NCBI GenBank assembly: GCA_023213315.1
Contig: JAKCPI010012715.1
Location: forward strand, 1-64,000
Source: Euborellia annulipes
Lineage: Eukaryota > Arthropoda > Insecta > Dermaptera > Anisolabididae
Direction: 5' to 3'
Length of the DNA: 64,000 nucleotides
Shown one piece after another: positions 9,974-63,118 of this stretch. Position 1 is the first letter of the stretch; each line of letters starts with the position of its first letter. Under the pieces are notes generated by a model. It had not been told where the DNA came from, did no database searches, and saw only the letters and a program-made list of their open reading frames with translations. The position numbers and the translations under genes were made by a program.

Positions 9974-10005
9974 GACGTTTCGGAGCGCGTCGCTCCCATC
10001 TTCAG
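9974..10005 (-). ncRNA. hammerhead ribozyme motif, intact core
   Basis: Minus strand CTGAAGA, stem II GGAGCG/CGCTCC, GAAAC, GTC. It is the same family as 27577-27609, lying in the left arm of the outer inverted repeat. Confidence 0.85.
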
Positions 10006-10399
10006 AACCTCAAATATTTTTTTATTAATAGAGTATTAGAAAAAATATACAAAATATTAGCTACCAACACCAATTTTCCACATAATTGCTAGGTTTATAA
10101 ATAAAATAATAAATAAGAATAAATAAAAAAAAAATATTTTTATATTTTTTAGCATAAAAAATTTTTGTTTTTGTATTTTTATATTATTTTATAAAATAGA
10201 GAGGGGAGGCGTCATCCAATTTAATTTTTTTAAGGGAGGCTTTGTAACATAAAGTTTGGAAAGCACTGTTCTAGACCATGTCGCAAAAAACCACTTTTTT
10301 GGATTCAGGGGACCTCAAAACGTGTATATCCATCAAAATCTCGGCATCGAATTTCTGACATGAATCCAATACTTTCTCTCTTTATAAATTTTTTATTTT

Positions 10400-11430
10400 C
10401 CAATCTCAAGCCTAGGATGGAGTGTAGCCTGATTACAGAACCTTTAATTACTCATATTCCATAAATGCAATCTAATTTTTTAACATTTATTTATTTATTT
10501 ATTTATAAATTAAACAAACCTCAAATCACCGATAATTCAATTAAAAAAAAAAAAACAGAATTTTTTTTGTCGATAATTTAATAATACATTTCTAATTCGA
10601 TCTCTGATTGGTTGATTCATTAAATTCATTTATTAATGAATGCGAGGGTGGTGGGGGGGGGAGATCGCCATGATGATAGAAAATTAATTTACCTTGAAAT
10701 TGTTTTTTTTTTATTTAATTTCTACCTGATTTTTTTTTTTTTTGTTAACAATATTAATGGTTAACCTCGAGACCACTTCAATTATTATCCCCCCCTTAGA
10801 GAGATTGGGCCAATATTAAGGGGGTGGGTTCTTGAAATTCAACCAAGCAGCAGCTGCCAAAGACATCCAACTGGAAAAAAAAACGGTCAGCAATTGGAGG
10901 GCACAAAAACGGGTTGGGGGGGGGGGATCGATTTGGAATTTCTCCCATCTACTTGTTAGAGGGGGTAGACAAAAAAAAAACAACCCTAAATAGATTAAGA
11001 AGAAAAATGATAATTTGCTCGTCATCAATTAAAACAAAAGATTGTACAAAATAAAACAGTGATGTAACAACAACAAATAAGACGAGAGAAAACAATAATC
11101 TGTGGAAAAAAATTTTCCTTCTTATTAGCAAAATGGACGATTCATAATCCTCAAAGACCTTTGAGAGAGACAAAATCCGGTGTGACAAACACAGAACACA
11201 ACTTTCAATTACCGAAGGTAAGAGAAAGTTGTTTGTTGTGGGTGACACCAGATTTTTTATACATTTATTTAAGGTCTTTTCTTTATAAATGTTATTATAT
11301 ATTATGTATAAAGGCATAAAAATATATAAATATAGGCTATTAGGGCATCGGCTGTTAGACTAGCCTGCCATCTATTGCAAGAATGCTGAACTAATTAGAC
11401 AGTTGATTTTTAAATAAATCATCTAAGCTT
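10400..11430. other. AT-rich stretch without genes
   Basis: Holds one family E hairpin (11173-11257) and homopolymer runs. Open frames at 10816-11317 are repeat and low-complexity artefacts. Confidence 0.5.
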
Positions 11431-12494
11431 CTATATATATAATTCACTAATGTCCGTCTGTCACGCTCTATTTAGGCAACTTCCCGTTGGAATTTTGAAA
11501 TGAAATTTTTAAAGCATAAAGAGTACCTTCTCGGGATTACAGGAAAATTATTTTCATCCCGAAATTCCTATAACTTTTTGAGTTATTAATTACGATTTCT
11601 CCCATAGGAAATGTAGAGAGAAATATTTATGTATTCTTTTCATTTGTGTATTCCATGAATGTAAACAAATCCTCAAGCAGGCACTGGTTTGGAATAGTAG
11701 TAATAATAATTTTATTTTCGCAGGCGGGCCCCAGCACAGATCATACAATCAAGATGGGACAGCTCCAGGTTAAAAATTGTTTATAAGTTTAGCGCTCTCT
11801 ATACGCGTGTCGACCTATTATTTTGCGCGGGAGACCCGTGGCTCAGAGAGAAGACATTAGCTTCTCGTGCCTAAGGTCCCGCGTTCGCGTCCCGCCCCAA
11901 GCGAGAAAAATTTATTTAATTACCCCCTTTACCCTCCCCCCCTGTATCCGCCCTTGATATTAATTTATATGTTTATCGGTATGATAAAATAAAAAAAAAA
12001 AGATTAAAAACAATTATTTGAAAATGAACAGTAAATGAAAAAAAGAGAAATTAGTGTTAAAAAAATTTATTGCAAATTGTAAAAAAATTACAATTAAATT
12101 TAATTATAAGAGCAGCAAATTAAGAACTTACTTCTTTCTTTCCCATTTTTTAAACACGTAGGGCATATTAAATACGAAGGGCAATAATTGCGTGTGATTA
12201 ATTGAGTAGGGCACGTTACAATTTTATTTAATTCAAATTTATAATGTTTTTTTTTATTTGTTATTAAACTCATCAAACAATGTTATTTTGTTGGCGAATG
12301 GAACGAACTCTACAGGATAAATTTTTAACTAGTCTAGTATTGCCATCTAGCCACATATCAGACAACTAAAAACTTATAAACATTCTTCCCATAGAGCTGT
12401 CCCCCCATGGGCCCCAGCCAGCTGGAGGGGGGTCTACGGGGGCGAAGTCCCCCGGCTAGGCATGCCCGCCGAAGGTGGGCGACGCGGCTAGTCA
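11431..12494 (+). mobile_element. Helitron-like nonautonomous element
   Basis: Begins tctatatatataattcac followed by gtccgtctgtcacgctc and ends with a hairpin (gcccgcc/ggtgggc) then cggctag before a T, matching a Helitron TC...CTRR layout. It carries a tRNA-like insert at 11826. The start is less certain than the end. Confidence 0.55.
11826..11905 (+). mobile_element. second type of tRNA-like repeat
   Basis: gggagacccgtggctcagag, then a B-box-like gcgttcgcgtcccgcc. It differs from the main SINE head, so it is a separate tRNA-derived family or an old tRNA pseudogene. Confidence 0.5.
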
Positions 12495-12689
12495 TTTTAA
12501 ATGATTTAAAAAATTATATTTTATCAATTTGAAAATCTCACAATTATTTTTTTTTATAATTCGTCATATATATTAAATTTCCTATTTTTGTCGTCACTGC
12601 TTGTGACGTCACGGCTTGTAACCCGACATGCTGATAGAAGAGCTAAAAAATTTGAGTCGATCAAATAAAAGTTTCACTTTAAAAATATA

Positions 12690-13307
12690 TTTGAAAAAAT
12701 TGTAGCATAGGATTAATTAAAGGCAAGGTGAATACCGCCTACAGCGGGCAGCGTATCCAACCAAATAAATGCCTCTTAATTAAAAGAATGAACAGGCAGG
12801 CTCATTAAATGGAAGCCTTAGGCTTTTTATAATTTATATACCCTGCCAGGTATATTATATTTAGAGTTAAGTTCAAAAAGTCATATCAGTCAGGCTATGT
12901 CGAGTTTCTTTTCTTTAATTCATTGCTAAAAAAAAGTTTTTATTTAAAAATACGGATTTGAATATTTCTTCTTTTTTTTGGGGTTTTAAAATAAGTATCT
13001 TATTTAAATGTATATTTTCTTATTATCAAGGATTTTTTTTTTTTTAACTTTTCGCATCGTCTCAAGAAATTTTTTTTAACATAATTATGTAAGAATAAAG
13101 TTTCGATGGAAAATTACCTCAATTTTTTTTTTTAACTCTTCTATGGTGTGACTTAACGCATAGCATCTTAGTTAACTTGACCACTTGCATTTCATAACCA
13201 TCCAATACTTTCTCTCTCTATAGATTTCATATATGGACCCTGTTATGCAAATGTGTGTCAAAGGCCAAAAAAATTCAAAATTGAGTTAAGCCCGAAATAT
13301 TGTTTCA
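12690..13307. other. AT-rich stretch, nothing recognised
   Basis: No repeat family or coding sequence recognised apart from a family E end at 13200-13240 (ccaatactttctctctctat). Confidence 0.5.
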
Positions 13308-13366
13308 AAGGTTATGGAGAAAGAAAAACCAGCGAGTGCTTTCCACGTTAAGATAATTTATTCGCA

Positions 13367-13401
13367 GATATTTCGGTAAGCCTAACGCAAACCATCCTCA
13401 G
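13367..13401 (-). ncRNA. hammerhead ribozyme motif, left arm
   Basis: Minus strand CTGAGGA, stem II GGT..ACC extended by a second helix, GAAAT, ATC as the cleavage triplet. Three bases after ATC (TGC) pair with GCA before the core, giving a short stem I. Confidence 0.78.
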
Positions 13402-13687
13402 TGCTTCAAATTATATTAATATGATTGTGGAGCGTTTAATAAATTCATAAAATGCTTGAGAAGCCATTCATATATGGAGGGGACAAAATCGAATGAAGCA
13501 AGTCACTGAGAGAAAAATAGCATCTATATACATAAGACACAATCGAATTTTTGTATGCTTTAAGATAATTTCTCACAGTGACCCACCAGGCGCGTGTACT
13601 TTCTAATACATCCCCTCCATATATAGAATGGCTTCTCAAGCATTTTATGAATTTATTAAACGCTCCACAATCATATAATTTGAAGCA

Positions 13688-13722
13688 CTGAGGATGGTTT
13701 GCGTTAGGCTTACCGAAATATC
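13688..13722 (+). ncRNA. hammerhead ribozyme motif, right arm
   Basis: Plus strand copy of the motif at 13367-13401, identical in the core. The two face outward in a palindrome. ATC replaces GTC at the cleavage triplet, which the NUH rule allows. Confidence 0.78.
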
Positions 13723-13780
13723 TGCGAATAAATTGTTTTAACGTGGAAAGCATTCGCTGTTTTTCTTTCTCCATAACCTT

Positions 13781-15479
13781 AATACTGTTGACCCAGCATA
13801 CTTCGTTTCGTTTACTTCATATTGTTTCAAATGCTATAATTAATAATATTTTTTATGAAATATGTCCTAAAAAAATTTATATTTAATGTAAAAGCTTAAA
13901 ATTATTTTTACAATATTTCAATGCAGGATTTTTATTTTGCAAAAATGATTTATGTACCTAACACGTTGTTTTTTATGATGTTAACAACCAATGTTATTTA
14001 ACCTATATTATATATTGTTTACCTTAAATAAACCAAAATCCTTTTTTTTTTTTTTGAAAAATGAGAAATGAATTCGTAGATGTCAAAATTTAATTTTTTG
14101 ATATTATTCCTGATAATGAAGATGAGGATCAGAGCGATTTCGAAAAGACAACAAAATAAATAATATTAAGTCGATTTCTATTATAACTTTGATTTACTGT
14201 TGCCATGTTCACTTGCATTCAGGAATTAAGTGATGAGAAAATTTTGTTATCTCTTTGTATTTAATTTTAAAACATTAATACTATTTAAAATTATTTAATG
14301 TAATTTTGACATAAAAAGTTTCTATGCTATTAGTATTAAATATAACCATAAAAGAACTTTAATAATATCTTCGTTTTAATTTTTGAATTATAACCTAAAA
14401 TTATTTTATTAATATAAATAGTGCATAGATTAATTTACAATCATGTGTCAAGAGACTTTGAAGCATTTTTGCAAATATAATTGGACTTGGAGAATTTTTT
14501 CTATTTTATTGTTTATTCTCTAAATTAGTCATATTAATTAAAATAATTAAATAATTAAATCTCTCTAAGGAAAAATAATAAAAATGGTTATATAATTAAA
14601 TTTTTCTTTATTTTTTTTTACTTTAGGGACTCGAATTGAATAAAGACAGACAGACAGCCTTGCAAGCAAATGGTGTGCACCGCCGGCAAGTGCTGCCTCT
14701 GGTGTCAATTTTATAAAACCTTTTGTTAAAATGAAATTATTCTTTAATTTAATCAAACAAATTTCATAAAATTAGCATAAATATCACGGAGGGGACAACC
14801 TTAAGTGGAGGGGAGGGGGCCCCCTCCTCGAAAAAGCAAAAATTCAAATATTATGGGTTCTAAGGGGCCCTGGAAAGGCATTTGAATAGAAAGAGAGCGA
14901 AGGTAATGAGTGCGAGTGAGACGGAGATAGTCGCTTAAAGATGCTGAGTCTCCGCTCTTGGTGCACATAAACCGGATTGCAAACAATACGCGTGACGTCA
15001 TCTTTTCTTAGAAGCTATAAAAGAGAGAAATAAAAATAAAATTATTTTTTTTTTATATTCATCAAATTAGAAGACAAAAACAAATTAAATGAATATAAAA
15101 AAATTATTTTAATAAAAGGAAATAAATATATTCTCTAACTTTTGATTGATAATTGAGGTGGGATTTATTTATATTTTTCTTCCTGAGACGGGTGTTAAAA
15201 TTAATTGTATTTTCAATTTATATTTCTCGGCCTCTAAGATCATTTGACTTTTGGGAAATTAAATTAAAATGACTTCCAGCAGGTGAGAGACTCAACACTC
15301 AGCGGGTCACCTATCCACGGTCCAGCAGTTCTTAGCCTTGCTTAACCCGAATTTTCTCGATTGATTTTTTTCTGCCTTTTAGAAGCTATTAAATTTAAAA
15401 AAGTTATTTTTTCTTTTTATATTCAACAAATTAAAAAAAAAAAAATTATTTTAATAATTACCTTCGATAACTAAAAATC
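13781..15479. other. AT-rich stretch with two GC-richer islands
   Basis: 14630-14720 and 14780-15000 are less AT-rich. 14600-14672 has a polypyrimidine tract, tttag and a later gtgtgc that could bound a tiny exon, but no protein is recognisable. The remainder shows nothing. Confidence 0.4.
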
Positions 15480-16297: not shown

Positions 16298-16528
16298 CTT
16301 AAAGCCAATTTTGAGAAAATCTAAAAAAAGTACATCAGTACTAGGCTAGTACTTTTGATCCAATTTTGTTTAAAAGATGATTTTCAAGTCTGAGGAAAGT
16401 GCTTAACTTAAATATAAAAGTAGATTCGAAGGACTTAATAGCTGGTAGTTCAATAAGGATAGGCGAAAAGAAGAAGAAAATTCGCAGCTAGATGTATTAT
16501 ATTTCATTATCTTTATTCCCATCATTTT

Positions 16529-16560
16529 GACGTTTCGATCCCGGTTGGGATCATCCTCAG
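16529..16560 (-). ncRNA. hammerhead ribozyme motif, intact core
   Basis: Minus strand CTGAGGA, a six-pair stem II GATCCC/GGGATC with an AACC loop, GAAAC, GTC. The bases after GTC (AAC) pair with GTT before the core. It is the left-end partner of 23391-23422. Confidence 0.87.
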
Positions 16561-16603
16561 AACTAATGTGCACAATAAGAGATAAATAGATTAGTATTGG
16601 GAA

Positions 16604-17000: not shown

Positions 17001-17340
17001 ATTAAGAATCTACTTTTGTTATTTTTGTACCTCAATTATTTTTCGAGTTATACTCAAAAAACGATACAAAATTTGAGGAGGTCTTAATATCATTAAACAT
17101 AAAGGGTAGAAGATATTTAAGATATCGAATAAATTCTGTATTTAATGCAGATAACGAATCAATAAACACAAATTTTATATCTTTTTTAGTTTTTAGCAAA
17201 TTTACGAAAATTCAAGCAAACATAGATGTCACATTCTCTTATTAAATAGAGCAAACTAGTAATTGACATAAATGTGTAAGATTCAGGATTTAGTGCTGAT
17301 TCTAATGCACTATTCACTATTTCTATGTATTGAATAGTTT

Positions 17341-17700
17341 AATAATGTTTAATGGCTGGAAATATATTGAGGAAGGATATAAATGCAGGCAGCCAAGAAA
17401 TAAAAAACGCTCTCGATTCCCTTTGAATGTCCAGACGTTTCGGGCAAAATTTATTCGCCCATCCTCAGTGAACTATTCTAGTGGGAGAGAGTTAAGTCTC
17501 CTTTGGTATACATAGTGGTTGTTAGGTCCTACTACGTATTCTATTTAATGTAACAATATGATGATAAATGAGTTTTTTGTTATTAAAATTTTTTGCTATT
17601 TTCATAGGCAAGATATAATGAAGTAATGTAACGTCTGGACATTCAAAGGGAATCGAGAGCGTTTTTTATTTCTTGGCTGCCTGCATTTATATCCTTCCTC
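17341..17700. mobile_element. 360-bp palindromic hammerhead element with 13-bp target duplication
   Basis: Flanked by tattgaatagttt on both sides (17328-17340 and 17701-17713). Arms of about 90 bp (from 17358 and to about 17700) are inverted copies containing ggcagccaagaaataaaaaa. The left arm holds an intact hammerhead; the right arm kept only the flank. The opposite arm of the 7-kb palindrome at about 21775 has the uninterrupted site, so insertion came after palindrome formation. Confidence 0.85.
17434..17468 (-). ncRNA. hammerhead ribozyme motif, intact core
   Basis: Minus strand CTGAGGA, stem II GGGC/GCCC with a long AT-rich loop, GAAAC, GTC. Bases after GTC (TGGA) can pair with TTCA before the core. 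Confidence 0.83.
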
Positions 17701-18514
17701 TATTGAATAGTTTTTTTTTATTATTTTGAAAAGAAAAAAAATTCATCTGTCAAAATTAATTAAAATCGATTTTTTATTATTTTTAGGACATTCCTTGGCC
17801 GAAAATGGATTGTTTTAGTTAGAATATTTTATATTTTAATTTATAAAATCGATATCAAGCCCTAAATGTGTTTATTTAATTAAAAAACAATAAATTAAAA
17901 AATATTGGCGGGAGTTGACATTCCAAGTCGTGAGTGTCATCAACAAACCCTCATTTTATGTGGGCGTAGCTAAATAGAAAAATTCCTATGGCTTTATGAT
18001 TGATTCAAGAGACCAGTTTTGCATTTTGCCTCAAATCCGTGAATAAATAAGAGAGATTTAGCGATTTTTTGAAAAGCGATCTCGCGGTAGACGAAAGGCT
18101 TAGACAAGAGTTACGCAAGTCTCCCTGGCTGGTCTCTGGGCGCCGATCGAATTGGAAAAAAAATTTGATGCTCTTCCATTAGTTGAAATAATTGTCAAAT
18201 TGATTGATTTCATTTGTTTATACTCAAATTTTATAAAATTTAATCCTAAAAATGGCTATAAAATCTTATAATGTTACTAAATTAACGGATCTTAGAAGAT
18301 TTTTTTATACATGTTGTGGGTTGTGTATAAACAACGATTTGGTAAAATAACATTAACAAGCGTCAAAAATTGAAAGCCTGAATTGATAAAAACAAGGATT
18401 AGAATATTGTCACAAGAGGAGATAAAATTTCATCTAATTTTGATATGAAATGAAATCTTTTTTTTTTTTTTAATCAAATAGGAAGAATAAAATGAGCAAG
18501 CAGCTAATAACACT

Positions 18515-20739: not shown

Positions 20740-22312
20740 GATTTTTTGTAATGAGTTTAGAATTTCCTAGAGATTACTTAGATGAAGCTAAAATTTAATA
20801 TTTAAACATTTATTTTTTTCATTATATCTCACCATCCGATTAGCCAATCAGATGAGAGTAAAAAGGATCATTGATCTATATTCTCTGAATTTTTGCCTAC
20901 GTGTATATAAAATTTCTAGTCGTCTAGCTCCAATGGTTTCGTTAAATTAGCGCTCTAAAGGTTTAGACCCGCTCAACGAATGTGCTCGGGGTCCATGCAG
21001 AGCAAGACTCGCTCTAAAAAAAAAAAATTTCATATCATATCAGAATTGGATGAAATTTTATGTCCTCTTGAGACAATATTCTAGTCCTTGTTTTTATCAA
21101 TTCAGCTTTCAATTTTTGAGGCTTGTTTATTTTATTTTACCAAATCGTTGTTTATACACACAACCCATAACATGTATAAAAAAAAACTTCCAAGATCCGT
21201 TAATTTAGCAACATTATAAGATTTTATAGCCATTTTTAGGATTAAATTTTATAAAATTTGAGTATAAACAATTGAAATCAATTTGACAATTATTTCAACT
21301 AATGGAAGAGCATCAAATTTTTTTTTCCAATTCGATCGGCGCCCAGAGACCAGCCAGGGAGACTTGCGTAACTCTTGTCTAAGCCTTTCGTCTAGCGCGA
21401 GATCGCTTTTCAAAAAATCGCTAAATCTCTCTTATTTATTCACGGATTTGAGGCAAAATGCAAAACTGGTCTCTTGAATCAATTATAAAGCCATAGGAAT
21501 TTTTCTATTTAGCTACGCCCACATCAAATGAGGGTTTGTTGATGACACTCACGACTTCGAATGTCAACTCCCGCCAATATTTTTTAATTTATTGTTTTTT
21601 AATTAAATAAACACATTTAGGGCTTGATATCGATTGAATAAATTAAAATATAAAATATTCTAACTAAAACAATCCATTTTTGGCCAAGGAATGTCCTAGA
21701 AATAATAAAAAATCGATTTTAATTAATTTTGACAGATGAATTTTTTTCTTTTCAAAATAATAAAAAAAAAACTATTCAATATATAGATATAGTGAATAGT
21801 GCATTAGAATCAGCACTAAATCCTGAATCTTACACATTTATGTCAATTACTAGTTTGCTCTATTTAATAAGAGAATGTGACATCTATGTTTGCTTGAATT
21901 TTCGTAAATTTGCTAAAAACTAAAAAAGATATAAAATTGGTGTTTATTGATTCGTTATCTGCATTAAATACAGAATTTATTCGATATCTTAAATATCTTC
22001 TACCTTTTATGTTTAATGATATTAAGCCTCCTCAAATTTTGTATCGTTTTTTGAGTATAACTCGAAAAATAATTGAGATACAAAAATAACAAAAGTAGAT
22101 TCTTAATCCTCATCAAATCGCCCATATTTTCCCCGTGTCATATGTTTAAGAAGTGGTTAAATTAAAAATCTTATATTTTTAGAATTTGTATCAATTAATC
22201 GAAAACTATTAAGAGATATTAAAATTTCGTACGCAAATTCTTATTCAAGGTGAAATTTTATCCAGAAACGATGTATCACATGCCTTGTGTTGGTGTTTAA
22301 TAGATAGATAGT

Positions 22313-23350: not shown

Positions 23351-23390
23351 CCGATACTAATCTATTTATCTCTTGTTGTGCACATTAGTT

Positions 23391-23422
23391 CTGAGGATGA
23401 TCCCAACCGGGATCGAAACGTC
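23391..23422 (+). ncRNA. hammerhead ribozyme motif, intact core
   Basis: Plus strand counterpart of 16529-16560 with the same stem II and AACC loop and the full CTGAGGA, GAAAC and GTC core. It marks the right end of the 7-kb palindrome. Confidence 0.87.
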
Positions 23423-24059
23423 AACATGATGGGAATAAAGATAATGAAATAATAAATTTTCTTTTTCTTTTCACCTATCCTGATTAAATATAAAATTTCA
23501 TCCTTGTAGCCTTTTAAAACATTATTATTTTTATGCGAATAAGGAAATGAATTGAGAGTTGGTCGGAAAGTGAGAAAAGTCCAAATCTCTCAACATATAA
23601 AAGATAGACAAACGATTTCTTTTTTTTTTTTTATTCCATTTCTATAAAAATGAAATAAAAATGGTATCTAAAGAGAGAGAGAGAGAGAGAGAGTGGATGC
23701 AACATAAATGCAATCCAAAGATTGGTCCCATCTCATTCTGCAATGGATCAAAGGATCAAAGGGCCTTTGGCTACAAAACGAAACTTTCTAGTAATTTAAT
23801 AAAATAGTTATATCCATCCCTTTACTTGGGATATTTCTATAATTATATTCTATAACTTTATAGGGGCGTATATATTACTTTCTATTACCTATATTTATAA
23901 AGGAAAAAGTTTTCAATTTATAATCGATTTTGATGGAAATACACGGTCCCGTGAGTGAACAAAATATCTCAGGAACGAACAGAACTAGGAGATTGACATT
24001 TTATATTTAAGTTAGACACCCCCCTGGGAAGTGACACGAGGCTTTTAAACAAAATCGGC

Positions 24060-24670
24060 CAAAGAGTACTAGTACTTTACTGATGTACTTTTTCAGTTTT
24101 TTTCGATTTTCTCAAAATTCACTGCAACAGATTTTGTTTAAAATTCATAAATTAAATATTTTTTAGATGCTCTTTAAAAAGTATATCAGTTAAATTTTTC
24201 GTGGAAATCGTTTGAAGTACATTTTACTGATGTACTTTTTCAGTTTTTTTCGATTTTCTTAAAATTCACTACAACGATTTTGTTTAAAATTCATAAATTA
24301 AATATTTTTTAGATGTTCTTTAAAAAGTATATCAGCTAAATTTTCCGTGGAAATAGTTTGAAGTACATTTTTCTGATGTACTTTTTCAGTTTTTTTCGAT
24401 TTTCTCAAAATTCGCTGCAAAGATTTTGTTTAAAATTCATAAATTAAATATTTTTTAGATGCTCTTTAAAAAGTATATCAGTTAAATTTTTCGTGGAAAT
24501 CGTTTGAAGTACATTTTACTGATGTACTTTTTCAGTTTTTTTCAATTTTCTTAAAATTTACTACAACTATTTTGATTAAAATTCATATATCAACTATTTT
24601 TTAGATGCTCTTTAAAAAGTATATCAGTGAAATTTTTCGTGAAAATCGTTTGAAGTACACTTTACTGATG
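24060..24670 (+). repeat. ~152-bp tandem repeat, four units
   Basis: Units begin near 24070, 24223, 24373 and 24524 with ctgatgtactttttcagttt, then ttcataaattaaatattttt and atgctctttaaaaagtatat. The unit is the middle segment of family E, which is single-copy in other members, so this is a local amplification. Confidence 0.85.
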
Positions 24671-25635
24671 TGGAAGCATTCGTAGCTCAGCGCCATCTGA
24701 TGATCAAGTTTGGGACTCAAGTGCTAAATATATCTCGACACAAAAAATCTTACCGAAGGATAAGAGAAAGTTGTGTGCTGTGCGATCAATTACACCAATT
24801 TTTTTTTTTTTTTGATATCCAACGTGTGAATGTTAAAGGTTTTCTATTTCAGTGTGATGCTTACGTGTACATGGGGCATGGGGGGAGGTGGGGGGGGGGG
24901 GGCATTGAATACTTGTCAATCAGAGACTAATCGATTTCCGAACTCAATTGCAAAGTGCTGTCTAATTTATTTTTTAAATGCAACGATAACTTGTCTGTCT
25001 GTCATTGATCTAAAAATACACACATAGTTTAAGTATATATATACTGTTAATAATATTTCTTATTTAAAAAAAAAATAATGCGGCTAAAAAAATAAAATAA
25101 TTTCTCTTCAGCTCTCTTTCTTCTGTTTTATTTAAAATAAATTTTTTTTTACTTTTATACCGTATCTTATTTATCGATTAATTCATATTTTGTCAAACAT
25201 ATTAAAAGAAAATTTGAAATAAACAATAAAAAGAATTAAATAATTAATTCTAAGAAGAGGGGGGTGGGGGGGGGGAGGTGACCTTGGCGCCGCCAAGCAT
25301 CAGGCGACAATTGACGGGGGGGAGGGAGGGAGGGGGGGGGGATGCTCGCACTCACCTCCCCTACTTTGGCCAATTTAAGATTCGCTAATCTCTCACGTTG
25401 GAAAAGAAAAAAAACTTTGAATATTCATTTATCTATAACTCCCGAACCCCTAATCCAAATTGCATCGGATTTTTTTTAATGAATTCAGAATTTCCTAGAG
25501 ATTATTTACACGAGTGTTTTTCAATCTTTTTGAATAAGCGACCCCTAATGACCCCGCAGACTAAAATCTAATAAATTAAGTCTTTTGTACAAAGGAATAG
25601 AGAAAAAGCTATTTTTTATTTCGTTTATTAAGCTA

Positions 25636-25666
25636 ACGTTTCGGTCAGATTAGCGACCATACTCAG
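25636..25666 (-). ncRNA. decayed hammerhead motif
   Basis: Minus strand CTGAGTA (G8 changed to T) with an intact GAAAC box. The G8 change should abolish activity. Confidence 0.65.
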
Positions 25667-25757
25667 GGCTGAAGGCTAGCCTTGACTCGCAGAGCCTATG
25701 GTCATTATTAAATTGCGCCTTTGGACTTTTGAGTAGTTTTATCCACACCTTTCAGCC

Positions 25758-25789
25758 CTGAGGATGGTCGCAAATCTGACCGAAATGTC
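25758..25789 (+). ncRNA. hammerhead ribozyme motif
   Basis: CTGAGGA, stem II GGTC/GACC, GAAAT, GTC. Partner of the decayed minus-strand copy at 25636. Confidence 0.78.
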
Positions 25790-26419
25790 AGCTTCAAGTG
25801 CCTAATAAATGAAATAAAAATAGCTTTTTCTTTATTCCTTTCTACAAGTTCCACTCAGCTATCGAACTCTCACTAATAAAAGACTTTTCTTTAATAGAAA
25901 ATGTTTCTTTAATAGAAAAAAATAGATTTAGCTGTTGACGGCATGCTTGAAATGGAAAATAAATAGACTTGAGTTAGAAAATGATTTGAATGTTAATACA
26001 TGTATTTCAAAAAATTTGTCAATTTTTAAACAAGCCCGAATTGTGTTTCAACTTTGCCTTTTTCTTTTTGCCAGCGACTCCCCGAGTAAGGCTTCGCGAC
26101 CCCCGTAGAGGGATTTGAAAGAACACTCTTTTACACGATGCTAAAGTTTAATAATTAGACATTTTTTTTATTATTATATCCATCCTATTAACCAGATGAA
26201 TATAAAGAGAATATTCTATTATAATTTTTCTCTACCTGTATATTAATTCTACAACCCTCTAAGACTCTAATGGTTTTGTTATAATACCGCTATAAATATA
26301 TATATATATATAGGTAAAAGAAAGTAATAAGATTAAATACTTGGATTATAATTATAAAATTTAGAAAATATAATTGTGAGTATTTAAAACTTCTTGTCTG
26401 AATTTAAAAAAAAAAAAAA

Positions 26420-27120: not shown

Positions 27121-27576
27121 CTTCTTACCTCTATATATGTTAATATATATAGAGAGAAAGTATTGAATTCATGTCAAAAATTCGATGTCGAGATTTTGAT
27201 GAATATACACGTTTTGAGGTCCCCTGAATCCAATTTCTTTTTTTATTCTTATTTATAAAACTAGCAATTATATGGAAAATTGGTCTTGCTAGCTAATATT
27301 CGCGCCTCTCCTTAAACTAGTCCGCGCTAGCCGTTAATATTATTTAACAAGTAACAAAAAAATCGGCCCCATTCATTAAGATAAAAGAATTTCATTTCAT
27401 CATGTTAATTAGACAGCCAAAGAATATTGAATTTTTTTTTTTTAACACACTTTTTTTTCTCATTCACACACACATAGTTTTTTCGGCAAATTATGCCGAA
27501 TAATAATTTAATGAAGAATATAAATGGAATGAGGAAAGGCAGCCAGCATAAATAAAAACTTTTGTATTATTTCATC

Positions 27577-27609
27577 GACGTTTCGGGAGCGCGTCGCTCC
27601 CATCTTCAG
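27577..27609 (-). ncRNA. hammerhead ribozyme motif (PLE type), intact core
   Basis: Minus strand reads CTGAAGA, then a GGGAGCG/CGCTCCC stem II, then GAAAC and GTC. All core nucleotides are present. It is the left-end copy of the PLE that retains GIY-YIG. Confidence 0.85.
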
Positions 27610-27730
27610 GACCGGAAAGAAAGCACGGATAATAAATTTTAATTCCCAACACCCTCTTAATCATAAAATACCAAGAGCATTGATAAATAAATTAATTAGA
27701 AAAAATGGATACCAGCTTAGAAATCGGAGT

Positions 27731-28243
27731 TGCAACGAAGACGATACCGGTGGCAAAAAAAGCAAAATATTTTTTGCATTGGATTATTATCCTAAAATAA
27801 GTCACCAATTGAAAAAAATTTTATAATCCAAATCGCATTCAAACTTACAAACACCTTGGCATTTATTTAATCAAAAAAGTAAAACAGCTATTCATGAAAA
27901 GACAAATATTGTGTATAAAATAAACTGTTAGGGTTCCGAAGCTGGAAAATGTCCTATTTACATTGGGACAAATGCGCGCAAAGTTGGCCTACGAATACGC
28001 GAATAATTAATAAAAAACAAAACAGCTTTAGTCTACGAACACAGGCATAATTTCGACTTCAAAAATTATAAAATAATTAATCAAGATCAAAACACATTCA
28101 GAAGAGAATTTATTGAGATATTTGCAATACAAAAATATAGAGCGCAATCATGCAACTATAAAATTGATCTAGAATATTTGAGTGCACTTTATGAACTATT
28201 ATTAATAAGTCTTCTAAAATTAAAAAAAAAATATATAATTTAA
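27731..28243 (+). pseudogene. Penelope-like element GIY-YIG endonuclease remnant
   Basis: One frame interrupted by stops near 27821, 27929 and 27998 still reads as the C-terminal half of a PLE protein. There is a linker with FFALDYYPKISHQLKKIL, then EKTNIVYKINC, then GKCPIYIGTNARKVGLRIRE, then ALVYEHRHNFDF and FRREFIEIFAIQKY. VYKI, CPIYIG, the Arg of LRIRE, EH and the later Glu match the GIY-YIG nuclease layout found C-terminal to the PLE reverse transcriptase. The RT itself is absent. The remnant lies between two opposed hammerhead motifs (27577-27609 and 28611-28642), the expected PLE terminal arrangement. Confidence 0.88.
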
Positions 28244-28610
28244 TGCAATGTTTTGGAAAAAAAAATATTTTAACGTGGGAATAAATCTATTTCTGTAATT
28301 GATAAATAACTCATTTTTATAAAGTTTTTCTCTATTTGTTAAGATTAGTTTTTCTAAGAATTTTAATGTTTAATTTTATATATTAAAGACATTGATTAAA
28401 TTCTTTTAATCTATCTTGGTCGGCGTTTGAGACTGTTACTCACCTGGACAATTGTTAAAATAATATGCACAGCATACATTGTGTGAATATTTGTTGTGTA
28501 TACATTATAATGTTCTGTAAACTCAATTGCTACAATTATTTCGAAAGATTTTATAACTATATTTTGTATATTTTTTCTAATACTCTATCAATAAAAAAAT
28601 ATTTGAGGTC

Positions 28611-28642
28611 CTGAAGATGGGAGCGACGCGCTCCAAAACGTC
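28611..28642 (+). ncRNA. hammerhead ribozyme motif, one core mutation
   Basis: CTGAAGA and stem II are kept, but the second box is AAAAC instead of GAAAC. G12 is essential, so this copy should be inactive. Confidence 0.75.
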
Positions 28643-28736
28643 AATGATATAATATAAAAGTTTTTATTTATGCTGGCTGCATTTCCTCATTGAGCTCCTT
28701 AGTCAACCGTATAATAATTTGATTATGAATATACTG

Positions 28737-28830
28737 TATATCTATTGGGGTCCAAATGCCTGGGATCCGAACCCTCGACCCTTGGTATACAAGGCAGGCG
28801 CGCTACCAACTACGCCAAGCCCGAGGGCAA
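28737..28830 (-). mobile_element. SINE head, mirror of 9793-9885
   Basis: Same internal deletion as 9793-9885, so the two descend from one duplication and not from two insertions. Confidence 0.72.
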
Positions 28831-29839
28831 TATTAAATTTAATATAATTTAAAAAAACAAAAGAATTTTCTTTATATAATCGCCTGAAGGTTAGCTATTC
28901 AGTTTTAAATGATAAAGACATCATCATCATCATCAGGAAGAAGAAGAAAAAAGAAAAAAAAAGCAGATCAAAGGATAAATAGAATATAAAGATATGATGG
29001 CATTCTTTTTGTTATCGTTAGATTCCAATTTTCCTTATCAAAATAAATAAATAAATAAATAACTATAGCTAATCAAAGAGAGAAAAAAAAAAATCAATCT
29101 GTAAAAGGGGTAAAGAAAAATCAAAACAAAAAAAATTATCTTTTCAATAACGTAATATTTTTAACAGAAAATCTAAATATTATAATAACGGAAACTAAAT
29201 ATATGTCGACACAAAATAATCTGGTGTGGCATGCACAGAACACAACCTTTGGTTACCGAAGGCTGTGCGACCAGTCACAACACCAGATTTTTATAGAGTG
29301 AGATCTAATGGATATTGAAAAGATAGTAAAGAATAAATATTTTACGTTATTTATTTGTCTCTCCCATCCAAGAGAGAGCCTTATTTATTGTTACTTAACA
29401 ACAAGTGAAATCATTCTCTCTGGGTCTAATGAATCATTTTATTTAGACAAAAGATTTGCGATGGAGATAATAGAATGTTTTTAATAGTTATTTCCAAGAA
29501 TAGCAGCCGGCGAGGGGAGGTGCAGGCGCCACTTCACCTCCGCTCGCCGTTTCTTAAGCCCTAAATAATAATCGTTTGAAAAAAAAAAATAAAAAACTTT
29601 GCATATTCAATTGCGTACAACTCGCAAACTACGGCCCCAAACAAAAACAAAATATAAATAAACAAATGGTTTATTAATTCAAATATACGGGAATGTCAGA
29701 AATTAAATAAATCTCGACACAAAAAAATCTGGTGTGACGAGCACAGAACACAACCGAAGGTAAGAGAAAGTAGTGTGCTGTGCGATCAATCACACCAGAT
29801 TTTTAACCTTGCTGAATGCATGCATACAAATTCGTAAGT

Positions 29840-40910: not shown

Positions 40911-40988
40911 AATCCCCATATTTTGGTATAATTATTAAAAATCGATAAATTTTCAATAATATTTATTTTTGGTTTACAGGTGCGCTAA

Positions 40989-41008
40989 CATGTTTCGGCC
41001 ACCATCAG
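40989..41008 (-). ncRNA. truncated hammerhead motif
   Basis: Minus strand CTGATGGTGGCCGAAACATG: both boxes are recognisable but stem II is collapsed by a deletion relative to its partner at 41454. Confidence 0.55.
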
Positions 41009-41063
41009 AACCAATAATTCATCGACATAACAAAAAGTCTTGAGGTGTAATTTATGTTTTAAC

Positions 41064-41272
41064 CAAAGAAATTTCTGATGGGGGGGGTTCAAGAAAATTT
41101 TTTTCAAAAATTTAAGATTATTTTTTTTTTTTAGCTAGAGTAAATTATTATAATATGTTTTACTTTCTCTTACCCTATATGAACTATAATTTGTATTATA
41201 GAGATTAAATATCTAATCATAGTTTGGGTCCCATGGGGGGGGGAGGTTGAATCCCCCCTGGCTACGCCTATG
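41064..41272. mobile_element. hAT-type MITE, same family as 4018-4159
   Basis: Perfect 8-bp duplication gttttaac (41056-41063 and 41273-41280). The right end ggctacgcctatg is intact; the left end has a deletion (caaagaaatttctgatgg). Its interior carries a family E fragment at 41157-41215. Confidence 0.85.
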
Positions 41273-41453
41273 GTTTTAACAATTCGATATTTTTTTATGA
41301 TTAAAATTAATGTTTAAATTTAGAACACACCTGATATGCAGAAATTAAGTTTATTAATCATTAATTTTAAAAAATCATAAAAAATATAGAAATAATTGTT
41401 TAAAACATAAATTACACCTCAAGACCTTTTGTTATGTGGATGAATTATTAGTT

Positions 41454-41485
41454 CTGATGATGGCTCTTATGGTGACCGAAACATG
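41454..41485 (+). ncRNA. hammerhead ribozyme motif
   Basis: CTGATGA, an imperfect stem II beginning GG and ending CC, GAAAC, then ATG. The triplet ATG is not a good NUH site, so cleavage is doubtful although the core is complete. Confidence 0.68.
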
Positions 41486-41759
41486 TTAGCGCACCTGTAA
41501 ACCAAAAATAAATATTATTGAAAATTTATCAATTTTTAATAATTATACCAAAAAAAACGACATATCACCTGACACACCTGTCACTATTTGTCCAAGAAAG
41601 AAAACACAAGTTTCTTTTATTTAATGGTATTCAACCTCCTTTGGATTCAGGGGACCTCAAAACGTGTATATCCATCAAAATCTCGACATCGAATTTTTGA
41701 CATGAATCCAATACTTTCTCTCTCTATATATTAACATACATAGAGGTAAGAGAAAATAA

Positions 41760-43350: not shown

Positions 43351-43361
43351 AAGCTTTAATT

Positions 43362-47149: not shown

Positions 47150-47325
47150 ATAGAGAACCCACAGCGACGTTTCGGTCGACTATGAGACCTTCTTCATGGC
47201 TAGAGTTCGGTCATTAGAAACACCTCTTAAGTTCTTTGACAGACATTTCATAAAATTGCCAAAAGTCAATATCTCTATTAAAGAAATAAACTTAGCTGTT
47301 AGGTCTTTTATTTTATTCTATTACC
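47150..47325. mobile_element. PLE-like hammerhead element, relative of 32441-32618
   Basis: The left half shares gcgacgtttcggtcga with the 32441 element, and the right end has the matching aaagaaataaac-ttagctgtta end in inverted orientation. It contains one decayed hammerhead. Confidence 0.6.
47166..47197 (-). ncRNA. decayed hammerhead motif
   Basis: Minus strand ATGAAGA, stem II GGTC..GACC, GAAAC, GTC. It has the same C3 loss as 32527. Confidence 0.58.
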
Positions 47326-49754: not shown

Positions 49755-49756
<2 letters not shown>

Positions 49757-52235: not shown

Positions 52236-52270
52236 TTGACTTACGGGGTACTATCCGAACAACCTTAATT

Positions 52271-55400: not shown

Positions 55401-58400
55401 TCGCTTGAATATATTCATCTAAAAAAAAAAAAATCAATGTGTGGTTTTATGAAATCACAATGCAAGTGAAACTTTTTTTTTCGGATCGTTGACGTTTAAC
55501 TGAAAATTTTTTAGAAAATTATTCAATTAAAATCGCGTTTTTAATCTTAACTTAATAATTGGAAAATGAGAAATCAATAGACGCATGTTAAAAACTGAGA
55601 ACAATATTTATTTAGTATTTGAATCATTTTAAATTATTTTAAAAATTATATTTTATCAATTTAAAAATTGAAAAATTAAATCTCACAATTATTTTTTTAT
55701 AATTCATCATATATATTAAATTTCAATTATTTATTAATAATTAAATTGAAATAAATAAATATCAAATGTCAAGACGTCTATAAAATGGCGGAGAGTTTTG
55801 CTTGCTCAAATATGCTTGTTCGTGATTACAATTCAATCTATCATCAAGCTGCTTGCACAATTCAAATGCTTGCGCAAAATTTTCCTGCAGACGCTACAAT
55901 TTGCTTGTACAATTTATGTTTGTAGCCATTTTTAGGCCTAAACTCTCGTTTGTAGGCTCTAATTGAAACATTGTATTAATAATCTTAAGGAAGGCAGATC
56001 AGCAGGCAGGAGAATGGAAAACTATTTTAATTTCTTTTGGTTGACGTTTCGGACGCCAATTGCGTCCTTCTTGGGGGCCTGCAATTAACAATCTTTGGTA
56101 AGAAATAATGATTTTTTATTTATAAAAAATAATGTTATATTTTTGGCTGCATGCCCCGAAGAAGGGCGCGATTGGCGTCCGAAACGTCGACCAAAAGAAA
56201 TTAAAATAGTTTTTTATTCTCATGGATGCTGATATACCTTCAGCCATTTTATACTTTAATTGTGCCTACGGGCTTGGTCTAGTTGGTAGGGTGCCTACCT
56301 TCTATACCAAACGTCGCGGGTTCGGACCCCAGGCAGTCCGATGATTTAATTTAAGCCATTTGGACACCAAATTTTCCCATCATCAGTCTTTCAAATTGGA
56401 TATGTCTTGGAGTTGTTATAAAGGCACAATACATTCATTATGTATTATATTTGACTTAATCCTGCCACGTACTTGATTGGTTAAATTAATTTCCTTTTAC
56501 CCCCCTTATCCTGAGCAATAATAAGATGAGTCAACTTAATATTATTATGATTTACCTGAATTAAACAACAAAAATTCACCAGAGGTGATTCCAGTAATGA
56601 AAGGGATTTTTTTGAAATGTCCACTTTTCATTAATTGAATTGGATCTCCAGTAAAAAATAAATTTGTAGCATCTTCGGGCTCTGATGTTGGTAGAAATGA
56701 CGGTATAAGAGGATAGACACTTCTCTAAAAAATAAAAATAACTTTAGTAGAATTTAAATTAGCCGCTCCGCCCTCTGCTCGTTCGGGCCCGCCTGTGGCG
56801 GACCGTCACCTTTTCTTAACCAAGTGCCGCAATTTTTCAGTCAACGAAAATACATTATCTGGCTTATTGATAAAATACAACCCTCTTATCCCTTTAGAAA
56901 AATCTATATAGATAATAGTGGAGTGTCCGTCTGTCAGTCTGTCTTGATCCAATCCGACCCATCCCCGATCTCTATAGGAAAAAAAATTTAATTATATTAT
57001 AATTTTTATTATGATTCATTTGAGAGATTTAATTATTTTAATTGGCTTTCATAAGATAAAACAATGCTTTCCAATGGGCAAATTAATTTTCTGGTATGCT
57101 TCCCCTTTGAGAATTTGCGGAACCGAGTCCTGGACTCTCCATAAGACTGCAAAATTTCATTTCAAAATTACGGGAAGTTGGACAAAAGAGCGTGACTAGG
57201 GATACGGTATCGAAAGAAAAGTATCGATACTTGTACTTGGTATCGTATCGAAAGGAAAGTATCGATACCAAAAGTATCGGATGAAAAGTATCGATACCAC
57301 CAAGTATCGAGTATTTTTTAAAGTATGAGTATTTTTCCTCTTTTTTTAAGTTTTTTCGGCATCTTAGGCTCCTGATGTCGTTCAAAGGGCCCAACGGAAG
57401 ATCAATGGGGTATACTGGTGCGCCATTTTCCTCAAAGTAATGAGCACCAGGAGGACGGGGTTTTCTCAACCAAAATACGGATTTCGCCAAAATAAAAGTC
57501 TGTCCATTTTCACTGGTCGACATAAATGAACTTTTTCTTTCACAAGAATAAAGATATAGATATGAGATTCTAGAAATATTTTTCATAAATTCAAACATCA
57601 TTTCAGTTTTTCCCCATCAGGCCAACTTTTAGAGATATATAGAAAAATATTTTAATAGAAAAAGTGCTCTAAACGGCTGATGGAAAAATTCTAACTACAT
57701 ATCTGAATTCACTATAAAAAATGTACTAAATTCACTAATCAGATTTCTTGTGAAAAAAACCTTGTCGACCAGTATTTTTATTAGTTTATATATCAGCCTT
57801 TCTATGTAATATTTGCGCACTTTTAAATTTAGTAAATACAGTTTGCAATAATACAAAAAAATTAAATTAGAAATTTAATGTTATTAAATTAAAAGGTTTT
57901 TATTAAAAAGTATCAAATTTTCTATTATTAATAAATAATTATTAGGAATATGATGGAATAAAGTCTATCCCACAAATATCGACCATCTGTTATATATCAA
58001 CTTGCTATTTATATCAAGAGAAAAAGAATATGAGATATTCTTTGGCAGAATCGCAATTAAAATATTTATATAACGTTTAAAGTCTCTCTATATGGCCTAA
58101 GATGCCGAAAAAACTTAAAAAAAAAAATGATATTTGAATGAGTACTTTTCATTCGATACCGGCAATCAAGTACTCATATGAGTAAAGTATCGAAAGAAAA
58201 GTATCGAGTAAAAAAAGTACTAGTATCGAAACAAAAGTATCGATACTAGTAAGTATCGATACTTTTTTCGTGTCCCTAAGCGTGACAGACTGACAGACAG
58301 ACGGACAGTCCACTATTATATCCGGAATATAGATAAAATCTATTAAAATTGAATTATAAACAAATCTTCCATAATTGTGGAATCCACCGGAGATTTTGCA

Positions 58401-60788: not shown

Positions 60789-60848
60789 CTGAAAAATACA
60801 AAAAAAAAATATATATTTTATGTTCGTATTTAGATGATTAAAAAACAT

Positions 60849-61265
60849 TGTGTGGTTTTATGAAACCACGATGCAAGTGAAACTTTTTTTTCGAATCGTA
60901 GGCGTTTAACTGGAAATTTTCAGAAAATTATTCAATTAAGGATACGTTTTTAATCTTAACTTAATAATTGGAAAATGGGAAATCAATAGAAGCATGTTAA
61001 AAACTGAGAACAATATTTATTTAGTAATTGGAGATTTGAATTATATTAAATTATTTTAAAAATTATATTTTATCAATTTAAAAATTGAATAATTAAATCT
61101 CACAATTATTTTTTTATAATTCGTCATATATATTAAATTTCAACTTTCCTATTTTTGTCGTCACGGCTTGTGACGTCATGCGCTTTGTAGCGTCACGGCT
61201 TGTGACGGGACATGCTGATAGAAAAGCGAAAAAATTTGAGGGGATCAAATACAAGTTCCACTTAA
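60849..61265. repeat. family C repeat, complete copy
   Basis: About 415 bp from gtgtggttttatgaaacc through aagtgaaacttttttt, cgtttttaatcttaacttaa, acaattatttttttataatt and repeated gtcacggcttgtgacgtca to aagttccactt. The aagtgaaac and gtttcactt ends are inverted, so it is probably a MITE. Others: 12500-12690 (right half), 45412-45766 plus 47071-47100, 53150-53464 plus 54307-54436, 55437-55735. Three lie in the esterase gene. Confidence 0.75.
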
Positions 61266-62622
61266 AAAAAAAGAATAGAGATATTACTAAATTATACAAT
61301 AAATTAAATAGGCAACGATTTTGTTAAAACTTGTCCGATCTTGAGGGTATAGTGCGAAAGTTCGTTGACTATTTTTTTTTTTATTCCCGTTACCTATTTT
61401 TAGCTCTCACTGTGCGTAGTACTAAGGGATAGAGCTTATGCCGAGATTCCGGTGTCCGTCTGTCTGTCCGTACTCATAAAAATTACGGTCTGAATTAAAG
61501 GTCGTAAAAAAATAATAGTTACATATACTTAATCAAAAATACGTTTTTGTCCCTAGCACTTTCGGTTTTTTAAAACGTTTTAAGTTTCAACTTATTATGT
61601 TTTTCATTTGTTTACATTTTAATCTTTTTTTTTACATTCGTCAAAATCAAAACCAATGTGTTTCCTTAAATATGGAGAAATAACCTCTTTTAACCTCCCA
61701 TTTTTTTTGACAGTTGTATATTTTGGCGCGCCACGAGTTATGTCATCATCATAACATACTCTTTGAAATATTACTAAAAAGGTTACTACATATCTATGAC
61801 TAGTTATCACGAAGCCATTTGGATGAAATTTTCTTCTGATCAATTGTAAATATTCTAAACATGTATTATTTACAATAAAAATTTATTTTATACAAGTGTT
61901 TTAATAAATTTCAAAAAATTCGTTTGATCATTTTTCGAAAAATTAAAAATTATAATTGCAACTTTGATCTTTTTCGCGATTACAATACTTCGTACAAGGA
62001 AGTAAAAGATTAGAGTAGAGATTTTTTCTAAGATATTTAAGTGCGAGGCGGGCTGAGCAGCTAGTTTTAAAAAAAGATCTTATTGAAAGCATCTCGAATA
62101 AGAGTTTAATTTCATTTGAATATACATGTAATTAAAAATAAAGTTTGTATTTTAAAAATAAAAAAAACAAAGTTGGCAGCAAAATAAACTTGTTTCTTTT
62201 GAAAAGCGAGGGGGAGATTTATAGGCAGGGGATGTGAAGGTATCTTCATGAAAAAAAAAAAGAAACCAACTTCCCCTTTCTGTATTCTTAGTTTACTTTC
62301 AATTGAAAGTCAAATTAATTCAAATAGTTTTAATAGAAAAAGAAGAGCAGAGATAAAAAAAAAAGGCTGGACCCGAATGAATATCGTAATTATAAAGTAT
62401 CTATCCTTTGAAGTCAAGGATGACGTAAACACTTGGGGAAAAAAAAAACTCTTTAATGGGATGTTGACCAACTTTTCAGACGCCCCTTTCTCGTCAATTA
62501 TATTCAAGAAAAAAAAAAAAAATTTCTTTCCTTCGGTAATTGAAAATTGTGTTTTGTGCTTGTCACACCAGATTTTTATCTATATCTATATTTATTTGCC
62601 GCCAGATTCAAGATATATAAAA

Positions 62623-62735
62623 TTGCCCTCAGGCTTGGTGTAGTTGGTAGCGCGCCTGCCAAGGGTCGCGGGTTCGAATCCCATGGGAGTACGATGATTT
62701 TATTTAAGCCATTTGGATACCAAATGTTTGAAAAT
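62623..62735 (+). mobile_element. SINE head fragment
   Basis: gccctcaggcttggtgtag, a B box gggttcgaatccc closer to the tRNA consensus than other copies, then the atgattttatttaagccat middle. Confidence 0.72.
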
Positions 62736-62919
62736 AAAAGAATTAATAAAAAAAAGAGAGCCTAATCATATTTCAAAGAGTATGTTATGATGACGACGTA
62801 CCTCAAGGCGCGTCAAAATATACAACTGTCAAAGTTAAAAGAGGTTATTTCTCCATATTTAGGGAAAAAAAAAGGACACATTGGTTTTGATTTTGACGAA
62901 TGTAAACAAAAGATTAAAA

Positions 62920-63118
62920 CACACAAGGAAGGGAGCAGGAGCAGCCAAAAATCAAAGCCTCCGATTTTACTACAATTACTGAGACGTTTCGGGAAAACTT
63001 TATTCTTCCATCATCAGTCTTTCAACGTCTCGGTAATTGTAGTAAAATCGGAGGCTTTGATTTTTGGCTGCTCCTGCTCCCTTCCTTGTGTGTAAACCAC
63101 GTACTTCATTAGTTATCT
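62920..63118. mobile_element. 199-bp hairpin element with a hammerhead at its tip
   Basis: Flanked by an 11-bp duplication aaagattaaaa (62909-62919 and 63119-63129). Arms 62920-62988 and 63024-63092 are 69-bp inverted copies with one mismatch seen by eye. The 35-base loop and the last six bases of the left arm hold a complete hammerhead on the minus strand. It is inserted in one arm of the inverted repeat 61370-61860 / 62765-63385; the other arm has the empty site near 61610. Confidence 0.87.
62983..63017 (-). ncRNA. hammerhead ribozyme motif, intact core
   Basis: Minus strand CTGATGA, stem II GGAA/TTCC with an AT-rich loop, GAAAC, GTC. The GAAACGTCTC segment is also complementary to GAGACGTT upstream, so the cleavage site can be buried in the long hairpin. 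Confidence 0.84.

Follow-up and report, generated by a model that had tools for sequence, protein, structure and literature searches.

Why does a single stretch of insect DNA hold so many hammerhead ribozyme motifs, and how did they come to be there? The question is posed by 64,000 nucleotides of the Euborellia annulipes (Dermaptera) genome (contig JAKCPI010012715.1 of assembly GCA_023213315.1, positions 1 to 64,000; hereafter the window), in which an earlier note had read a dense field of hammerheads from many families resembling Penelope-like elements (PLEs) and had taken it for a swarm of nonautonomous elements. Our analysis confirmed the observation and retained part of the interpretation, namely selection on the fold, a likely Penelope-like origin and the many families, but not the swarm. 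Instead, the motifs are probably hammerhead cores lying near the 3′ ends of Penelope-like insertions that arose by asymmetric two-ended target-primed reverse transcription.

A scan of the window for CTGANGA followed by GAAAY within 40 nt returned 14 rows, compared with 2.7 (standard deviation 1.8) in 30 first-order Markov simulations. Eleven of these rows were complete motifs of the form CTGANGA-N-stem II-GAAAY, with C3 at 10005 (−), 13401 (−), 13688 (+), 16560 (−), 17468 (−), 23391 (+), 25758 (+), 27609 (−), 32208 (+), 41454 (+) and 63017 (−), and the other three were spurious or duplicate; all eleven complete hammerheads that had been claimed were thus recovered in place, and position 9974 is the last base before the predicted cut in the first of them. 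A covariance model (R1), trained on 11 window motifs (nine complete and two decayed) and matching its training rows by construction, gave 18 matches in the window at E < 0.01, that is, seven besides the 11 complete motifs, and two weaker matches (E = 0.054 and 0.1), where approximately eight decayed motifs had been reported before; one R1 match, at 56347 (−), comprises the 5′ half only. By sequence the motifs fell into 11 families (A–K), where at least ten had been counted, and C, F and 47158 (−) look mutually related.

Covariation of stem II between families, likewise claimed, was borne out: 50 of 55 pairs formed within the 11 families, compared with a mean of 38.3 when partners were swapped, and none of 20,000 permutations reached the observed value. 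In an alignment of 11 window motifs (A1), the proximal part of stem I and stem II covaried with a score of 0.509, compared with 0.210 in shuffled and at most 0.273 in slid controls; a second alignment, made of 93 matches in 40 loci elsewhere in the genome, scored 0.672 (0.164 shuffled, at most 0.111 slid), although it was fitted to the structure and is biased towards it. The motifs have the hammerhead core CUGANGA ... GAAA, and both stem I and stem II covary. Conservation of the stems shows that the fold matters and supports selection on it, for which the self-cleavage suggested before would be one possible reason. Public models, unlike R1, gave nothing: with Rfam 15, nothing in the window passed a gathering threshold, no hammerhead appeared even at E ≤ 10, and close-ups of two motifs found none either. 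The earlier note had named covariance models without significant hits as an outcome that would speak against it, and with the public models this was literally the outcome, whereas R1 detects the motifs. By eye, stem III is shrunk to ACGU in most units, and one extra base lies between A9 and stem II; the absence of helix III and this extra base plausibly explain why no Rfam model matches, and a whole-window Rfam scan can miss such hammerheads entirely. At 32208, UGUG follows GAAAC and leaves no plain NUH, which a longer stem III would restore (by eye).

Self-comparison of the window revealed that 10 of 14 loci (the half-motif at 56347 left out) are outward-facing inverted pairs, hereafter insertions A–J, and that 10005 (−), 16560 (−), 23391 (+) and 47158 (−) have no partner. 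The motif count therefore overstates the number of events, since most motifs are arms of two-armed insertions. The same architecture was found in loci sampled from elsewhere in the genome (40 in listing order, 20 shorter, and later 20 more; not a random sample). In the 40 loci together with the window, 60 of 74 scorable units, queried with the 100 nt from GAAA onward, were accompanied within 2.5 kb by an inverted copy with the tails outward, and the other 14 lacked one; six of the 60 also showed short direct matches and three short convergent ones, and no unit had direct or convergent matches only. When the set was enlarged to 60 loci plus the window, 78 of 98 units were paired in inverted orientation and 20 were unpaired, with no convergent and one weak direct match. 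On both counts, head-to-head inverted terminal repeats are present. Neighbours less than 2 kb apart were ordered −/+ in 20 of 22 cases among the AUG-core matches listed, the remaining two being different sequences, and in 20 of 20 among the matches of another listing. Arms in this larger set were taken up to 700 nt upstream, which also drew in other inverted repeats. For the analyses below, the set was collapsed to 62 rows, and the 11 rows of that kind, with an arm ending less than 20 nt past the cut, were dropped, leaving 51 insertions.

The density of motifs is not peculiar to the window. Across the searched assembly (903 Mb, 25,949 contigs), the strict core with AUG occurred 25,231 times and the variant in which the U is replaced 9,553 times, together at least 34,784 exact cores, compared with 0 and 0 for the reversed-pattern controls. 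Four strict cores were counted by eye in the window, where the genome average would predict 1.8 per 64 kb, and the field is therefore a genome-wide property rather than a local cluster. Cores in which the U of CTGANGATG is replaced constitute a second large class, to which insertion I is similar by eye; among the matches listed, the replacing base is mostly A.

The strongest regularity concerns the outer ends of the pairs. Five hand-found window pairs were added to the 51 insertions, and one of the resulting 56 failed the flank-length check. Target duplications above threshold flanked 42 of the remaining 55, whereas mismatched flanks reached the threshold in 8.6%. Among these 42, the tail was on the left arm in 22 and on the right in 16, none was classed as tailless and four (D, L013, L014 and L015) were unclassed, so that 38 of 42 had one tail only. 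A second set of 20 insertions, picked from printed pairs, mostly of CTGANGAAG families and including 16 with another base at the U, contained 12 with a duplication (mismatched flanks: 30 of 380 at threshold), and all 12 had a single tail, six left and six right, with none tailless. Taking both sets together, a single tail was present in 50 of the 54 pairs flanked by a duplication; tails measured 17–38 nt, and duplications varied in length from about 9 to 20 bp. If the two arms chose independently, exactly one tail would occur with a probability of at most 0.5, which argues against independent start-site choice.

Joining the flanks over one copy of the duplication and matching them to uninterrupted copies revealed empty sites for 17 of the 42 insertions elsewhere in the sequence examined. 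Among the 13 one-tail insertions with an empty site, 11 joins were clean within two gap columns. The clearest case is insertion B (17341–17713 including the right duplication), with a full arm on the minus strand (hammerhead 17426–17476), a short arm at 17630–17703 (+) that begins 6 nt before the predicted cut, a 28-nt tail on the left arm and the 13-bp duplication TATTGAATAGTTT at 17328–17340 and 17701–17713. Its empty site lies within the window at 21619–21931 (97.5% identity) and contains a single TATTGAATAGTTT copy; because the target is uninterrupted there, the left tail belongs to the insertion.

The boundary between arm and tail coincides with a predicted hairpin. CAGC occurred within 45 of 50 tails, and CAGCNA in the tail together with TNGCTG in the arm in 32 of 50 cases. 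The variable position of TNGCUG/CAGCNA was paired in all 17 families that have both motifs (GC 10, AU 5, GU 2), a result reached by 184 of 50,000 permutations; another position-specific test gave 406 of 20,000, and a separate tally made per tail gave GC 13, AU 7, GU 3 and UA 1. In these position-specific tests the motif itself dictates the rest of the stem, and families were clustered crudely (the UA pair of L040 was merged). An automatic best-stem score barely separated own from swapped tails (14.5 vs 13.8; 39% of swapped tails reached the own mean). The TNGCTG/CAGCNA pairing places the start of the tailless arm within the predicted hairpin loop and that of the tailed arm beyond the hairpin.

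Reverse transcription probably took place separately at the two ends of the break, and the asymmetry between these two events was ordered. The GIY-YIG/reverse transcriptase (RT) protein of the element would cut both strands at one staggered DNA break; at one end, copying would start beyond the conserved RNA hairpin and produce a tail, and at the other it would start inside the hairpin loop and produce none. The two complementary DNAs (cDNAs) would stop at separate points, the inner truncation being observed to differ between arms, and then be joined head to head. On this view the two ends have distinct roles, and the asymmetry would not result from two choices made by chance.

Self-cleavage would seldom determine where inserted copies end. 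Had it fixed the 5′ ends of the templates, inner arm ends would be expected to cluster at the cut. Inner ends of the short arms lay within 3 nt of the predicted cut in 2 of 51 insertions, and six fell in a 14-nt window, compared with a median of four; there was no excess at the predicted cut among these 51 insertions, in a sample that requires one intact core and that insertions cut on both arms would escape. Cleavage-defined 5′ ends were accordingly dropped as a candidate. In vitro insertion by the purified Anolis PAc protein, in the published account, does not need cleavage (PMC11167929). A run-off site at C3 was also considered and rejected: a peak seen with the ends of family mates (24 of 91 in 12 nt) vanished when three or more mates were used, and with inverted partners it was not significant (569 of 5000); it may be a module boundary common to families. 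A further peak in the family-mate comparison, at +36 to +41, was taken to reflect an unrelated repeat and left out. One may speculate, at long odds, that the hammerhead is kept chiefly as an RNA pairing module and not for cutting, with the self-complementary ACGU stem III joining two element RNAs in one particle and an asymmetric enzyme dimer copying the two templates, one from a start beyond the hairpin and one from within the loop. If true, this would explain the one tail, the head-to-head arms, the two-template arms of insertion L035 (below), the strict conservation of GAAACGUC and the absent mark of cleavage at insertion ends.

Three other origins of the paired arms were weighed. Head-to-head arms would also result from cDNA fold-back, in which a single reverse transcript, perhaps made from antisense RNA, primes and copies itself; self-priming was preferred for Adineta Penelope elements in 2013, according to the available text (PMC3846280), and it would suit the small loops between the arms (14 nt or less in 10 of 51 insertions) and arm differences that are mostly private. 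Loops range from 3 to 993 nt, however, and the upper end fits poorly with fold-back. The tail was on the longer arm in six and on the shorter arm in six of the 12 scorable insertions, and short-arm tails speak against this origin because a copy cannot gain a tail that is missing from the first cDNA. In addition, the arms of L035 hold two family variants: they differ at five informative sites, at four of which both variants occur in other insertions (a two-template test on aligned arms alone missed L035, which was found with longer mates). The one-tail data thus argue against simple fold-back as well as against independent start-site choice, and we consider fold-back unlikely.

We hold it equally improbable, if not more so, that the pairs are established nonautonomous families, that is, mirror-ended mini-elements each transposing as a unit, which was the swarm of the earlier note. 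Insertions C (25585–25847) and L017 (2936–3249) share their inner junction and loop (by eye), the clearest hint of a pair that moved as a unit, and the family K copies 16560 (−) and 23391 (+) begin at the identical base (by eye). In eight other multi-copy families, junctions and arm lengths vary between insertions (by eye), as expected of separate truncated insertions and not of fixed small elements, and target duplications vary in length too; L014 and L015 share a junction and flanks, but lie within the same flanking repeat and look like one duplicated insertion. With most motifs being arms of two-armed insertions, and with junctions that vary in the families compared, the swarm was not supported. 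Animal retrozymes are small retroelements with a circular RNA, and their type I hammerheads sit in tandem repeats. They have the type I arrangement and the small noncoding units in common with the insertions; yet the three longest tandem arrays checked held no hammerhead, stem III is ACGU in most units (by eye) and no unit had a convincing direct repeat within 2.6 kb, which makes a retrozyme origin very improbable.

Assignment of the asymmetric two-ended insertions to the Penelope-like group is likely, as the earlier note had proposed, and rests on their architecture, on where the hammerhead lies with respect to the tail, the spacing of AUG and predicted cut (25–29 nt in 15 units) and a broken C-terminal remnant. 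The Penelope-like traits found comprise a minimal hammerhead in a terminal repeat near the 3′ end, a tail of about 30 nt confined to one of the inverted repeats, duplicated target sequence and 5′ truncation to varying extents, and the elements are probably members of an already known kind. Coding sequence is mostly absent because the insertions are truncated; pair D keeps a C-terminal remnant upstream of its hammerhead (27623–28210), and L057, of another family, keeps a related stretch (36% over 53 residues, E = 4e-4). Of an open reading frame (ORF) with RT and GIY-YIG domains, these putative C-terminal remnants were all that was observed; Pfam and the PDB gave them no support, and no homologue emerged from protein searches. 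The AUG was rejected as the start of an ORF in these families: in the 11 complete motifs the frames it opens close after 3–31 codons, and 9,553 cores have its U replaced.

Several observations weigh against this reading of the insertions. The remnant in D owes its protein label to a likeness, judged by eye, to motifs of Penelope C-termini; it had no Pfam or PDB match, L057 had only a weak, unrelated Pfam match below the cut-off, and no intact Penelope-like ORF was seen, a statement with no genome-wide search result behind it. Direct tandem copies, usual in the Penelope-like group, were not convincingly found within 2.6 kb (one weak match among 78 paired and none among 20 unpaired units); partial tandem pseudo-long terminal repeats (pLTRs) were not found over that distance, yet full-length tandems would lie farther apart than 2.6 kb and may still occur. 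Differences between arms over 29 insertions were mostly private (82 vs 18 shared, the shared ones including L014 and L015, mates of each other), and most pairs could accordingly come from one RNA or one master, the two arms generally having equal or identical templates. The junction common to C and L017 is what a replicating unit would show. The single-tail rule is not absolute, L013 (2939–3072) being a likely exception: both of its arms are probably tailless (by eye), its right arm has an internal deletion, and its joined flanks match an empty copy. L014 and L015 have no tail class and D is unclassed, and two of the 13 one-tail empty-site joins (L017 and L020) were not clean. Seven of 42 duplications are built of two letters only, no duplication was detectable in 13 of 55 and 8 of 20 insertions, and for 18 of 50 tails one or other hairpin motif is missing. 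Finally, strict asymmetry is not predicted by PAc, whose start sites, in the account available, show no difference between strands (PMC11167929).

The remaining features of the window are as follows, with cores located by R1. Insertion A (13308–13780) has outward hammerheads at 13359–13409 (−) and 13680–13730 (+), a 38-nt tail on the right arm and the duplication ATATTGTTTCAA at 13297–13308 and 13819–13830; uninterrupted copies of its target occur in L015 and L020. The inverted-repeat matches 17083–18166 / 21316–22026 (466 and 258 nt, 96–98%) are one repeat, the first copy of which is split by insertion B. Insertion C has hammerheads at 25627–25674 (−, one core change) and 25750–25797 (+), and its duplication CTAATAAA scored 8, below threshold. 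Insertion D (27528–28691) consists of a short arm at 27528–27613 (−) with a hammerhead at 27569–27617 and a long plus-strand arm with a hammerhead at 28603–28650; its flanks form an imperfect 27-nt direct repeat (23/27), and the plus-strand ORF remnant within it is broken by three stops. The family D core at 9966–10013 (−; C3 at 10005, predicted cut after 9974) had no inverted partner within 3 kb and sits in a 1.2-kb copy of 28559–29805. This segment is duplicated in inverted orientation with 94% identity (8810–10057 and 28559–29805) and contains, besides the hammerhead, a repeat of seemingly tRNA-derived origin as judged by eye; a tRNA gene search found no tRNA genes.

Insertion E (31885–32363; hammerhead 32200–32246, +) has a left arm that starts within stem II, a 25-nt tail on that arm and the duplication TATCTTATTAAA, which lengthens to 16 nt with one mismatch. 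Insertion F (32442–32617; hammerhead 32519–32566, +, with C3 changed to A) has a 34-nt tail on the left arm and the duplication TTAAATATYATT, and insertion G (34663–35293; decayed hammerhead 34743–34790, −), the right arm of which spans only 35232–35293, has a 33-nt tail on the left arm and the duplication ATGTATTTTTTTA. In insertion H (40921–41553), a hammerhead at 41446–41493 (+) faces a left arm at 40981–41016 (−, E = 0.1) from which most of stem II is deleted; insertion I (55990–56241), of the CTGANGAAG class by eye, has decayed hammerheads at 56148–56196 (+) and 56035–56084 (−, E = 0.054). Target duplications were sought between the outer flanks of H and I, and none was found. Insertion J (62919–63093; hammerhead 62975–63025, −) has a right arm beginning 6 nt before the predicted cut, a 25-nt tail on that arm and the duplication AAAGATTAAAA, and a diverged uninterrupted copy of its target lies at 61493–61771 (79%). 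The single-armed family K cores lie at 16521–16568 (−) and 23383–23430 (+), both also found by the pattern scan, and share an identical upstream start by eye. For the decayed hammerhead at 47158–47205 (−, E = 2e-6), no inverted partner was found, only short local matches.

At 56347–56394 (−), the J-like hammerhead 5′ half TTGAAAGACTGATGATGGGAAAA abuts a palindromic CCCCAGGCAGTCC repeat, as though the repeat had inserted there. A 60-nt repeat beginning CCCCAGGCAGTCCGATGATTTTATTTAAG has eight copies over 16119–62739 and is partly palindromic, resembling a miniature inverted-repeat transposable element by eye. A tandem array of about four 146-bp units at 24076–24671 is without a hammerhead, and a short frame at the window end (63984, +), ending in KKIFCIKFADDV, resembles by eye the catalytic box of a non-LTR (long terminal repeat) reverse transcriptase.

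Minimal type I hammerheads in metazoan genomes and in the pLTRs of PLEs were reportedly described by Cervera and De la Pena in 2014 and by Lunse et al. in 2017. In the reviews, as far as their available text goes, such hammerheads occur in thousands of copies and many families without helix III, and a cited title as well as the reviews speak of cleavage as dimers (PMC7761336, PMC6155905, PMC7229834). The reduced helix III found here agrees with these descriptions; unlike the hammerheads described, those of E. annulipes, known from sequence alone, comprise at least 34,784 exact cores in a paired architecture. Metazoan retrozymes, as portrayed in the text available, share with our insertions a type I hammerhead, a noncoding nature and a likely dependence on the enzyme of another element, but are tandem repeats with canonical type I hammerheads, which the window elements are not (PMC7229834).

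The closest likeness is to PLEs of the Penelope/Poseidon type. Pen1-6 of Adineta vaga are described with head-to-head pLTRs, an optional one-sided 31-bp tail and duplications of 8–10 bp where present (PMC3846280), and the purified PAc protein of Anolis is described as cutting and extending both strands and as starting at two sites, one at either limit of the tail; the PAc hammerhead has its stem II at the start codon and its cut 26 bp on (PMC11167929). The insertions studied here have in common with these elements, as published accounts present them, the head-to-head pLTR-like arms, the one-sided tail of about 30 nt, target duplications and 5′ truncation, together with a minimal hammerhead near the tail whose stem II begins at AUG and whose cut falls about 26 nt on. 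They differ in that the AUG opens at most 31 codons and its U is replaced in 9,553 of 34,784 cores, and in that no direct tandem copies were found within 2.6 kb; in contrast to the tail described as optional in Adineta Penelope, the single tail is here close to a rule (50/54). No statement of a regular single tail was found among the open-licence full texts searched, parts of which were available, and as far as that search extends, the single-tail pattern with its hairpin is a sharper regularity than the literature describes. What minimal hammerheads do in these elements was termed a mystery by a 2020 review, in the text available (PMC7761336), and the origin of inverted copies of Penelope-like elements was left open in the corresponding part of the Adineta study (PMC3846280); with tens of thousands of nearly always one-tailed copies, both become directly testable in E. 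annulipes.

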